From Anaerococcus ihuae (GTDB lineage: Bacteria > Bacillota > Clostridia > Tissierellales > Peptoniphilaceae): a stretch of DNA of 64,000 nt. The notes under the pieces are model-generated. The model saw only the letters and a program-made list of their open reading frames with translations. It did not search any database and was not told where the DNA came from. The stretch covers positions 440,001 through 504,000 of the forward strand of contig NZ_CAKMRU010000001.1 of NCBI RefSeq assembly GCF_928368155.1. The letters are read 5' to 3'. Position 1 is the stretch's first letter. Each line of letters opens with the position of its first letter. The position numbers were made by a program, and so were the translations under genes. This document shows positions 23,963 to 62,240 of this stretch, one piece after another.

Positions 23963-24275
23963 ACTTTTTTAAAAAAACACTTGATTTTACCTAGCAGGTT
24001 TCGAGCAGATAAACAAGCATTGATTTTGGTTTTTATCCAGATTTATCGTACGTAGTGAGTGGAGAAATCTCTTGGAATCTCTCTATGCGTTCGTTTCACT
24101 CACACTAAAACACCTTTGCTTTTCAAACTTCTTCGTGCTTTCGCACTTAGTTTTAGGGATAAATTTGCAAAATCAATGCACATTTATCTAGTCGAGATGG
24201 TACGTAGATTAATTTTTATTTTAAAATAAAATGTTATCTACATTCATACTTTGTCTACACTTTGTCACCCTGGAA
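23963..24275 (-). repeat. Fold-back repeat element, long and degraded copy (copy A)
   Basis: No gene. Read on the minus strand it shares blocks with copy C at 48290-48451: GTAGACAAAGTATGAATGTA, TACGTACCATCTCGACTA and GTGAGTGAAACGAACGCA followed by GAGAGAT...GAGATTTCTCC. Between the second and third blocks it carries about 80 extra bases with their own hairpin (AAGTGCGAAAGCACTT-like). A terminator-like hairpin CACC...GGTGTTTTTT follows at 24265-24290. It belongs to the same dispersed family but lacks a clear flanking duplication. Confidence 0.7.
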
Positions 24276-37772: not shown

Positions 37773-38006
37773 AGATGGAAAAAACCATCTCAGAGCGTAG
37801 ACAAACCCTCAAGCACGAATATCTGACTTCAAAAATTGTTGATTTCTAAATTCCAAAATTCTAAAAACGCAAACTCGCTAACGCTCAAACAGTGCGTTTT
37901 TTTGACGAATTTTAAAATTTGAAATCAAATCAATTTTTTCCGTATGATATTCTTAGCATGAGGATTTGTATACTTTATCAATAGTCTGAGATGGTAAAAA
38001 CCATCT
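37773..38006. repeat. Fold-back element inside a terminator, copy B, with 18-bp flanking duplication
   Basis: The element proper is 37791-37988 (198 bp), with ends CAGAGCGTAGACAAA and, inverted, CAGACTATTGATAAA. It is an extended imperfect palindrome (TGATTTC...GAAATCA with AAAACGCA/TGCGTTTT near the tip; outer CCTCAAGC/GCATGAGG). On each side lies one copy of a terminator hairpin, AGATGG...CCATCT, at 37773-37790 and 37989-38006 (one base different). Read from the minus-strand gene at 38006, only the far copy has the T-run. Confidence 0.85.
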
Positions 38007-41564: not shown

Positions 41565-41817
41565 AAAAATTCATGAAAAAAAGAGTAGGCTTGTGGAAAA
41601 GCACAGAGAGTTGGAGTTTGGTGAGATCCATCATTTGATATAAGTTCGAAAATCATTTTTCTTTTGCATGTCTGAATTATAGTAAGATATGTCGCCATGG
41701 TTGGCGTTATCAAAACCCGGCATTGTTTGATGCTTGAAGTGCTTATTTTTGTATAAGAATAAAGGTGGTAACGCGGAATTTTCGTCCTTTGTCTAATTTT
41801 TAGACAAGGGACTTTTT
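41565..41817 (+). promoter_or_regulatory. T-box leader (tRNA-sensing) before brnQ
   Basis: The conserved T-box AAAGGTGGTAACGCGG is at about 41761-41776, preceded by a Stem I region with CAGAGAG, GGTGAGATCC and GAAAATCA. A terminator CCTTTGTCTA/TAGACAAGGG followed by CTTTTTT lies at about 41788-41817. The codon ATC in the presumed specifier loop (near 41653) would match tRNA-Ile, which fits control of a branched-chain amino-acid carrier. T-box identity is secure; the specifier reading is tentative. Confidence 0.88.
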
Positions 41818-44807: not shown

Positions 44808-45081
44808 TTGACAAAACAACTTATTAATGGTAGTATTTGTATTGCAATTGAAAAGCTTGATAGAGGAGCGGAAAACATTAGTAAAATATTTTTTGTGGGA
44901 ATTGGAAATATTTGAAAGGGTGATCCACCGAGGGATTTTAAGTTTGCCCAAAGCTTAAGGTTACCGGGACGATTGGAGAATATCTGTCGGACTGCCAATT
45001 TTTTGGTGAGCTGTCGTGGTTTATAATTATTATATATTTATATTTTATATTTAAGTCATGACATATGTCATGACTTTTTTT
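44808..45081 (+). promoter_or_regulatory. Promoter, lysine riboswitch and terminator
   Basis: Promoter TTGACA (44808-44813), 17 bases, TAGTAT (44831-44836). The aptamer (about 44846-45025) shows lysine-riboswitch blocks in order: GATAGAGGAGCGG, TTAGTA, GAAAGGGTGATCCACCGAGG, TTACCGGGACGATTGG, CTGTCGGACTGCC and GCTGTCGTGG. A perfect terminator, AAGTCATGAC/GTCATGACTT (45053-45076) plus T-run, ends the leader. Lysine binding should switch the downstream transporter off. Confidence 0.9.
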
Positions 45082-46852: not shown

Positions 46853-48265
46853 ATGTTTTTATTAGATAACATAATTGGTATTGCTGATTTTTTGTGGAGC
46901 AATATTATTGGCTATGTTTTGTTGGGAGTTGGCCTGTATTATACAATCAGATTAGGTTTTCCACAAATTAGATATGCTAAAGAGATAAAAGATGTTTTGA
47001 AGAAAAATTTGAAAAGTGATGATAATGTTTCAGGATTTGGCGCCTTGGCAGCTGCCGTTGGTGGTCAAGTTGGAACTGGATCTTTAGTAGGAGTAGCATC
47101 AGCTCTTGTTGCTGGTGGACCAGGTGCAATTTTTTGGATGTGGGTTACTTCAATTTTAGGAATGGTAATTACTTTTGCAGAAACAGTTTTGGGTCAAGTA
47201 TATAGGGTGAAATTATCTGATGGAACCTATAGGGGAGGTCCAGCATATTATATTAGAAATGGTTTAGGCAAAAAAGTTTTGGGAATTATTACTGCATTTT
47301 TGTACATAATAGGTGTTGGACTTTGTATAGCCTTTATGCAAACAAATTCTATCGCCAAGGGTTTTCAAGGGGTAATTGAATTTAATCCAATAATTGTTGG
47401 AGTAGTAGTTACAATTTTAGCTGGAATTATAACAATTGGTGGAGTAAAAAGACTTACTAAAGTTACAGGATTTTTGGTTCCAATTATGGCGGCATTTTAT
47501 GTTCTCATTGTTTTTATAATTATAATAACAAATATTACAAAAATTCCTGCAGTTTTTGCTTTGATTTTTAAATCAGCTTTTAGCCCACAAGCAGCAGTCG
47601 GTGGAATAATTGGTCACAGTGTAATGGATGCTTTTAGAAATGGTGTTGCAAGAGGATTATTTTCAAATGATGCTGGTAATGGTATAGCAGGAATTATGCA
47701 CTCATCAGCTGACGTTGATCACCCAGCTGAACAAGGATTTTTGGGAATGTTTGGAACATTTGTTACAACTTGTATAATTTGTACTCTTACAGCTCTTGCA
47801 ATTTTATTAACTGGTGTTTTGGGAAATGGATCTGATGGAATTAATCTTGTTCAAGATGCCTTCTCATATGAAATTGGTTTAGTGGGAAGATGGGTTGTCG
47901 CACTAGCCATGGCATTTTTCGGATTTACAACTTTAATTGCTGATTTATTTTATGGTGAAGCAAATATAATCCATATTTTTAAAGATAAATATAAAATTCC
48001 ACTTTGGATTTATAGACTTTTTGCAGCAATTATGTTTATAGTTTCTACAAAAATGTCTCTTGAAATTGTTTGGGGACTTATAGATGTATTTGTAGGAATT
48101 TTGGTATTTATTAATGTTATAACTCTGATATTTTTATACAAATCTGTAAAGACAGTTTTGGATGATTATGAAGACCAAAAACAAAAAGGGAAAAAACCTA
48201 TTTGGAATAAGGAAGATAATGTTCTTTATTCAGATGAGGGTGAATATAAAAATTTTGAAATATAA
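46853..48265 (+). CDS. AGCS family Na+:alanine/glycine symporter (second)
   Basis: 470 residues with AGCS signatures AAAVGGQVGTGSLVGVASALVAGGPGAIFWMWVTSILG, RGGPAYYIRNGLG and RGLFSNDAGNGIAGIMHSSADVDHPAEQG. It is only moderately similar to the 43342 protein, so substrate preference probably differs. AGAGAGG precedes the ATG. The gene end carries the duplicated terminator of repeat copy C. Confidence 0.92.
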   Translation: MFLLDNIIGIADFLWSNIIGYVLLGVGLYYTIRLGFPQIRYAKEIKDVLKKNLKSDDNVSGFGALAAAVGGQVGTGSLVGVASALVAGGPGAIFWMWVTSILGMVITFAETVLGQVYRVKLSDGTYRGGPAYYIRNGLGKKVLGIITAFLYIIGVGLCIAFMQTNSIAKGFQGVIEFNPIIVGVVVTILAGIITIGGVKRLTKVTGFLVPIMAAFYVLIVFIIIITNITKIPAVFALIFKSAFSPQAAVGGIIGHSVMDAFRNGVARGLFSNDAGNGIAGIMHSSADVDHPAEQGFLGMFGTFVTTCIICTLTALAILLTGVLGNGSDGINLVQDAFSYEIGLVGRWVVALAMAFFGFTTLIADLFYGEANIIHIFKDKYKIPLWIYRLFAAIMFIVSTKMSLEIVWGLIDVFVGILVFINVITLIFLYKSVKTVLDDYEDQKQKGKKPIWNKEDNVLYSDEGEYKNFEI

Positions 48266-48268
48266 TTT

Positions 48269-48472
48269 AGTCCTAGTTTATCTAGGGCTCAGAGCATAGA
48301 CAAAGTATGAATGTAGATAATAAAATAAAATTTAAGCTACGTACCATCTCGACTAAGTGAGTGAAACGAACGCACGGAGAGATCTCATGAGATTTCTCCG
48401 CTCGTTGCACTCGGTCGAAATGAGAAATGTTTCTATTTTGTCAACAGTCTGAGTCCTAGTTTATCTAGGGCT
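48269..48472. repeat. Fold-back element inside a terminator, copy C, with 21-bp flanking duplication
   Basis: The element is 48290-48451 (162 bp), with ends CAGAGCATAGACAAAG and, inverted, CAGACTGTTGACAAAA. Its centre folds as TCGAC...AGTG...GGAGA-TCTC-AT-GAGA-TTCTCC...CACT...GTCGA. A terminator hairpin (AGTCCTAG, loop, CTAGGGCT) occurs as identical 21-base copies at 48269-48289 and 48452-48472; only the second is followed by TTTTTATTT. So the whole hairpin has been duplicated around the element, as by a target-site duplication. Confidence 0.88.
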
Positions 48473-48562
48473 TTTTATTTGAGAAATTTTAAATTTATTT
48501 ATTATTTTTATTTAACTATAATAAAAGTATAATAAGCTTAGAAATAATACATGGAGGTATTT

Positions 48563-57253: not shown

Positions 57254-57356
57254 TTATAAAACATATTTAATAATTAATGAATATCTTGGAACAATTGATT
57301 ATAACCAGCATAACTAAAATATGAATAAAACTGAATGAAAAATGTTAGGAGGTTTT

Positions 57357-57602
57357 TTGTCTATAAAAATAAAAGTAAGAGAATTGACAAAAATTTTTGG
57401 TAATAATCCCAAAAAAGGAATTAAATTATTAAAAGAAGGAAAATCAAAAAAAGAAATTTTAGATCAAACTGGACTTACAGTTGGTGTTAACAGATGTTCT
57501 TTTGATGTTGAAGATGGGGAATTATTTGTAATAATGGGTCTATCTGGTTCTGGAAAATCAACTTTAATTAGATTGATAAATAGAATGATAGAGCCTACAT
57601 AA
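57357..57602 (+). pseudogene. Glycine betaine ABC ATPase (OpuAA/ProV), 3'-truncated
   Basis: Only 81 residues remain: IKVRELTKIFGNNPKKG, the LLKEGKSKKEILDQTGLTVGVNR insertion typical of OpuAA/ProV, and Walker A MGLSGSGKST, ending in LINRMIEPT and a stop. Signature, Walker B and the CBS domains are gone. TTG 57357 after TAGGAGG is the likely start. The break is immediately followed by repeat fragment D, so the deletion ended in or was caused by that element. Confidence 0.9.
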
Positions 57603-57618
57603 TGAATTACTAAATGTA

Positions 57619-57660
57619 CTTTGTCTACGCTCTGAGTCGTGATTTTTCACGACTTTTTTT
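57619..57660 (+). repeat. Fold-back element remnant (copy D) with its terminator
   Basis: CTTTGTCTACGCTCTG at 57619-57634 is identical to one end of copy B (read on its minus strand). It is followed, exactly as in copies B and C, by a terminator hairpin of the AG...CT type (AGTCGTG, loop ATTTTT, CACGACT, 57635-57654) with a T-run. The other end and first hairpin copy are absent. Confidence 0.8.
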
Positions 57661-62033: not shown

Positions 62034-62240
62034 TTGACAAAATTAAAATTTGTATTATAATAAAAGTGTAAATAAAATAACACAATTCTTCAGGGCGGGG
62101 TGTGATTCCCCACCGGCGGTAAAGTCCGCGAGCTTTTTGCTGAATAGGTGAAATTCCTATACCGACAGTATAGTCTGGATGAGAGAAGATTTTTAATTTT
62201 TCTTTTAAAATAATCAAGGTCCCTGGAAGGGACTTTTTCT
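62034..62240 (+). promoter_or_regulatory. Promoter, FMN riboswitch and terminator of the rib operon
   Basis: TTGACA (62034-62039), 16 bases, TATAAT (62056-62061). The RFN element (about 62083-62190) shows CTTCAGGGCGGGGTGTGATTC, CCCACCGGCGGTAAAG, CCGCGAGC, CCGACAGTATAGTCTGGATG and AGAGAAGA in order. A terminator GGTCCC/GGGACT plus TTTTTCTTTT lies at 62218-62240. FMN should turn the operon off. Confidence 0.95.

Follow-up and report, generated by a model that had tools for sequence, protein, structure and literature searches.

A MITE of Anaerococcus ihuae lies between two copies of a terminator-like hairpin and is most likely mobilised by an IS1182-family transposase

A doubled hairpin at a gene end

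Why should one gene be followed by two identical terminator-like hairpins, with 162 bp of gene-less DNA between them? This arrangement occurs in the window analysed here, a 64,000-nucleotide stretch of the 1.83-Mb Anaerococcus ihuae genome (G000:C1:440001-504000, G000 being the window's own genome). The upstream gene, which we take to be an AGCS gene after the name given in an earlier sequence-only reading of this DNA, ends at 48265, and the left hairpin, AGTCCTAGTTTATCTAGGGCT (21 nt, 48269..48289, plus strand), starts just past its stop codon. An identical 21-nt hairpin lies at 48452..48472 (plus strand), and the next reading frame, lactate dehydrogenase-like by eye, starts at 48551. The DNA between the hairpins, copy A (48290..48451, plus strand), runs from CAGAGC to GTCTG, and its end motifs, boundaries and relatives across the genome identify it as a non-autonomous element (MITE). 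On the window strand it reads CAGAGCATAGACAAA ... TTTGTCAACAGTCTG, with imperfect terminal repeats: the left repeat, CAGAGCATAGACAAA (48290..48304, plus strand), shares its end type with the CAGAGCGTCGACAAA end of the likely parent IS described below, and the right repeat, CAGACTGTTGACAAA (48437..48451, minus strand), is of the type of its CAGACTGTAGACAAA end. A T-run, TTTT, was read beside the right hairpin only (48473..48476, plus strand), the left hairpin being without one. The sequence-only reading had described two identical 21-base hairpins bounding the element exactly, imperfect terminal inverted repeats and a T-run kept by the distal hairpin alone, and all three were recovered at these positions.

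Three further pieces of such elements were located in the window. Copy B (37791..37988, plus strand, 198 bp) is a MITE with the same ends and another interior, which has relatives in congeners; the ends are all that copies A and B have in common. From its ends and flanks, the target duplication of copy B was read as a left hairpin, AGATGGAAAAAACCATCT (37773..37790, plus strand), and a right hairpin, AGATGGTAAAAACCATCT (37989..38006, plus strand), of which a single one is present at empty sites. A damaged, composite copy (24057..24264, minus strand) retains one recognisable end and a nested palindromic repeat. Finally, a solo element end, CAGAGCGTAGACAAA (57620..57634, minus strand), has no partner end nearby within 3 mismatches and adjoins a hairpin with a T-run, AGTCGTGATTTTTCACGACT (57635..57654, plus strand, read from the sequence); this solo end beside one hairpin is probably what the earlier reading had called copy D. 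In the same interval (57339-57654) a short ABC-transporter ATPase-like frame stops just before the solo end and hairpin, as if joined to them by a deletion. Elsewhere in the window, Rfam matches at gathering scores comprised a T-box leader (41569-41792), a lysine riboswitch (44853-45021) and an FMN riboswitch (62082-62194).

Empty sites in congeners

Queried with copy A plus flanks, 21 of the 31 genus genomes (own included) gave some match, in many cases limited to the element or to part of a gene. In G001 the site is empty: its flanks align at 90.5% identity over 337 columns, the matches to the left and right flanks share precisely the hairpin, and one hairpin, identical over 21 nt to the right copy, is present. 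By eye, the locus in G030, G007, G013 and G008 has a single hairpin of other sequence, and in G003 the right flank alone aligned. Empty sites of copy B were found in five of the eight genomes searched (G001, G030, G007, G013 and G003), with flank matches that overlap by 18-20 bp, equal to one hairpin; in G004 the flank matches were all weak, and G011 gave none.

At copy B's terminator, G008 carries a different element between two hairpins, with a copy A-type interior and the end types reversed. This locus (L302; G008:C1, about 528845-529083) is an independent insertion of another element type at the same terminator, which thus appears to have been targeted recurrently, by different elements in two species.

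Copies across the own genome

Searches of the own genome with the two end patterns (up to 3 mismatches) returned 46 and 52 matches, with some places hit by both, while the reversed patterns gave 2 and 3. The portions of the genome that were fetched contained 78 ends, which resolved into 32 facing pairs and 14 unpaired ends, some of the latter probably being chance matches. The left and right flanks of a pair resembled each other far more than mispaired flanks did, with a mean match score of 16.1 in the 32 pairs against 6.0 in 992 mispairings; 30 of the 32 pairs scored at least 10 (20 of the 992 controls) and 22 scored above every one of the controls. The remaining ten comprise eight with diverged, damaged or short repeats and two without a flank repeat: one is a composite of 561 bp, and the other, spanning 2,229 bp, probably joins the ends of two separate elements. 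On inspection by eye the repeats are hairpins, with damage in a few, and a stem anchored at the foot scored at least 7 in 22/32 left and 25/32 right flanks, compared with 16% of shuffled flanks. No match above 14 was found between the left flank of one own-genome copy and the right flank of another, and the hairpins therefore belong outside the element. The sequence-only reading had proposed that the target duplication is the entire terminator hairpin, and had suggested looking for hairpin repeats at other copies and for empty sites with a single hairpin; both are present, and the proposal holds up.

Pair length was 161-258 bp in 26 of the 32 pairs, so that the elements are short, lack a transposase and are multicopy, as in a MITE. 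Four pairs exceed 1.7 kb, of which three contain genes of other ISs and the fourth is probably a mispairing. The 1.76-1.85 kb copies were considered as carriers of the element's own transposase and rejected, as by translation the IS genes there are IS3- and IS110-like. The same IS110-like transposase gene, judged by translation, lies within two element copies (G000:C1:1094624-1096468 and G000:C3:68303-70064), which suggests that the palindrome of the element may itself be a target for another IS. Several copies of the own genome (L014, L015, L016, L018 and L022) have a further repeat, which begins with ACTAAAACA and ends near AGTTTTAGGGAT, nested at one place; the pairs of these copies are 253-258 bp long.

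A likely parent insertion sequence

Both end types of the MITE copies, CAGAGCG.. and CAGACTG.., are found on a 1,597-bp IS in the genome G028, which is present in five copies with the ends CAGACTGTAGACAAA / CAGAGCGTCGACAAA as terminal inverted repeats bounding a single gene, and all five copies are flanked by repeated hairpins, for example AGGCATCCATATTGGATGCCT. Its transposase belongs to the IS1182 family (NCBIfam NF033551, 436.2 bits against a cut-off of 270), with the Pfam domains DUF772 and DDE_Tnp_1_6 above cut-off. From these shared features, this IS is the likely parent of the MITEs. The own genome has one transposase match (434.6 bits to NF033551), 91% identical to the G028 transposase over residues 1-476, and a scan of genome contigs for the transposase returned only two loci; the closest named match, with 87% identity over the last 113 residues, comes from an Anaerococcus metagenome bin. 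At the own-genome IS1182 copy the left end and two hairpin copies are present and no right terminal repeat was found, so current mobility in this genome is uncertain.

These observations bear on the one reading that dispenses with a mobile element, in which the locus is a host structured RNA or a tandem terminator whose repeat arose by slippage or recombination. The stretch is intergenic and does fold strongly (z -8.0, with none of 200 shuffles as low), although mutual pairing of the two flanking hairpin copies contributes to this. The same ends, however, recur next to unrelated hairpins at dozens of places, the site lacks the element in sister genomes, the end types are shared with an IS that carries a transposase, and no Rfam match at gathering score was found at the copy A site. 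We give this reading a negligible probability, and as a full account the empty sites and the lack of an Rfam match at gathering score there rule it out. Where the earlier reading had left a choice between a terminator-targeting mobile element and a structured RNA, the empty sites and other copies thus favour the former, and the latter is unneeded.

Hairpin duplication among IS1182-family loci

We searched for related transposases in genomes of the order (150), family (130), class (391) and phylum (398), taking the best matches first and at most the best 30 loci from each. The 119 loci examined are mostly best matches and include fragments and multiple copies per genome (for example in G028, G045, G046 and G223); six come from named plasmid records. 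At 62 places among these best-match loci, paired ends of this type were present together with the flanks on both sides. Among the matches listed, 49 of the 62 had a direct repeat of 14-35 nt (score at least 12, median 24), a score reached by none of 2,352 mispaired controls. A stem score of at least 6 was found at 55/62 left and 53/62 right boundaries among the matches listed, compared with 11% of shuffled left flanks, and the hairpin loops measured 3-6 nt in 47 of the 49 repeats listed. Four extra loci with other or weaker ends also carry whole-hairpin repeats (L182, 20 nt; L186, 22 nt; L187, 42 nt; L242, 20 nt).

Many of the repeats cluster at 20-25 nt, as they would if an ordinary transposition with a fixed long stagger had used A-hairpin-T terminators merely as common intergenic targets. 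Against this, the repeat length is not constant among the matches listed (from 14 to 35 nt in the 49 places, and the longer repeat of L187), and in 49/49 of them it differs by no more than 2 nt from the hairpin length determined on a single flank (r = 0.9995). The repeat also begins with A in 44/49 and ends with T in 45/49 of the matches listed. Fixed-stagger transposition is therefore very improbable, and we reject it on the match between repeat and hairpin length.

Among the matches listed, 13 of the 62 places were scored as without a duplication. Four (L193, L194, L197 and L198) fall elsewhere in the tree or are of an 8-9 bp type, five (L185, L210, L216, L279 and L296) have two different hairpins, as by eye does L274, two (L245 and L267) have a right hairpin that is damaged or missing, and at L297 the pairing had taken in a second, outer end. 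Two different hairpins at the element were likewise seen in Exiguobacterium mexicanum and several others, perhaps through recombination between copies. Automatic end-finding on L179-L291 placed ends at 99 of 113 loci. Of these, 40 were labelled whole-hairpin, and among the remaining 59 the ends were in many cases unreliable.

Hairpin-duplicating IS1182 elements extended beyond the source genus in these family searches, named carriers being Lactococcus sp., Acetoanaerobium noterae, Sutcliffiella horikoshii and Peribacillus sp. G101, from another family of the order, has a MITE whose ends are related, and there the repeat was found in 11 of the 13 copies examined out of 19 pattern matches. One locus of that genome (L132; G101:C1:991000-992000) reads hairpin-element-hairpin-element in tandem, the duplicated hairpin having been hit again.

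Phylogenetic distribution of the duplication

In a midpoint-rooted tree of 77 transposases, with hairpin labels set by hand, 40 formed one group (SH-aLRT 99), of which 30 have the duplicated hairpin, nine carry the hand label of hairpin-flanked but did not score as duplicated, and one is untestable. Outside this group the duplicated hairpin was seen in one of 37 (L291), where absence of a hairpin repeat means that none was found. The distribution bears on a replacement of the stem-loop as in IS1272, with the second hairpin regained later. The transposase family and the kind of target are the same in IS1272 (PMC4923244, PMC5678879, in the portions available). In those portions, however, IS1272 reportedly makes no target duplication, while here 46 of the 49 repeats among the matches listed are perfect, and the IS1182 members in which no hairpin repeat was found sit elsewhere in the tree, with one untestable exception. 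We consider such a replacement highly unlikely for this clade; target deletion of the IS1272 type is contradicted by the finding of one hairpin before and two whole hairpins after insertion.

Refolding of the reconstructed empty site at seven loci with 7-9 bp repeats gave mixed results: clear hairpins at L195 (z -8.1) and L198 (z -3.2), weak ones at L191 (z -1.5) and L287 (z -1.0), and none at L197, L261 and L262 (z 0.5, 0.3 and 0.9). We therefore make no general claim of loop-only duplication for other IS1182 clades. L195, L198, L287 and L191 are members of IS1182 whose ends are of types like CCACTGAA and GCTGCTGAA and which make 8-9 bp repeats; where these repeats lie inside clear hairpins (L195 and L198) they may represent a second mode of hairpin use. 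Another IS1182 group (L189, L193 and L194) has CAGAC-type ends without GACAAA and 4-bp or no clear repeats, and in L189 and L194 hairpin arms seemingly stand on both sides of the element.

Proposed mechanism of insertion

Copy A is, with considerable confidence, a MITE that is most likely mobilised in trans by an IS1182-family DDE transposase, from a clade that duplicates whole terminator-like hairpins. The comparison of loci shows one hairpin before insertion and two after, a repeat length that follows the hairpin, and an IS with the same two end types. In the mechanism that we propose, the palindrome would be recognised as a structure, either as a cruciform or as a hairpin on each of two separated strands. 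Both of the element's 3' ends would be joined to the hairpin's 5' foot on each strand, and gap filling would then copy the hairpin on both sides. The agreement in length, the symmetry and the small size of the loops favour recognition of a folded palindrome.

Among the matches listed, TTTT stands beside the right hairpin copy in 35/49 and AAAA beside the left copy in 37/49, both runs being present in 28 of the 49, from which we infer that the target hairpins are transcription terminators. Either run stands on its expected side in 44/49 of the matches listed, and recognition through transcription (a paused RNA polymerase, an RNA hairpin or an R-loop) in place of a DNA cruciform would fit this. 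In contrast, the two feet are cut symmetrically and repeat length follows paired length across its whole range, up to that of L187, which better fits a DNA palindrome, and five of the 49 targets among the matches listed have neither TTTT nor AAAA at the tested positions. We regard transcription-based recognition as a minority reading with an appreciable chance, and the folded DNA palindrome as the preferred one. As an A-run with hairpin on the left and a hairpin with T-run on the right survive insertion, termination can persist both ways and the host probably suffers little from the insertion.

In a broader formulation, to which we lean by a narrow balance, the clade would act as a structure-measuring integrase that takes any extruded terminator palindrome, irrespective of sequence and size, cuts at both 5' feet and makes a duplication as long as the hairpin, using terminators as renewable safe havens. 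If so, working terminators would be left on both sides of an insertion, a duplicated hairpin could be hit again, as at L132, or one terminator be hit in two species, and replacement of the IS1272 type would amount to this reaction cut at the opposite foot. Whole-hairpin duplication accounts for a class of doubled terminators and of repeats at gene ends, provides a rule by which the exact ends of these IS1182-type elements and MITEs can be located, and suggests how a mobile element may occupy terminators and leave them intact.

Comparison with known systems

Hairpin targeting by the IS1182 family is already in print: in the available portions of two papers (PMC4923244, PMC5678879), IS1272 and TnSha1 of staphylococci target hairpins of unrelated sequence, several of them terminators, and IS1272 leaves the hairpin partly deleted or replaced, with no target duplication reported there. 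As described in those portions, both resemble the clade studied here in their IS1182-family transposase and hairpin targets, but they delete or replace the hairpin whereas this clade duplicates it whole. The portion of Wan et al. 2017 available (PMC5678879) includes a hypothetical pathway (Fig. 13, pathway b) in which joining of both ends at the 5' feet of a cruciform yields two stem-loop copies; a branch without an example there, it has an outcome that is the regular one in this clade. In the open-licence literature, a scope outside which most subscription journals and ISfinder fall, we found no printed case of whole-hairpin duplication, and what appears to be new here is such duplication as the rule for an IS1182 clade. 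ISEfa7, an IS1182-like element on an Enterococcus faecium plasmid (NZ_AP026656.1), falls in the group of 40 transposases and, like this clade, has a repeated hairpin, GCTGTCTGTGAGGACAGC, at its inner ends, but it differs in a second, outer copy of one end and was hence scored as having two different hairpins.

Bacterial MITEs such as BOX, RUP and NEMIS are short, gene-less and multicopy, with terminal repeats that match an IS, and their target duplications are short and of fixed length. The MITEs described here are alike in size, copies and ends, but their target duplication is a whole hairpin. Group IIC introns, which are retroelements, likewise use terminator hairpins but go in next to them; Rfam revealed no intron family in the window. 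In most DDE transposons the target duplication has a set length, whereas here the length would be set by the target's own fold. How a DDE transposase deals with a cruciform or hairpin thereby becomes open to direct test, for which dozens of natural insertions and several empty sites are available.
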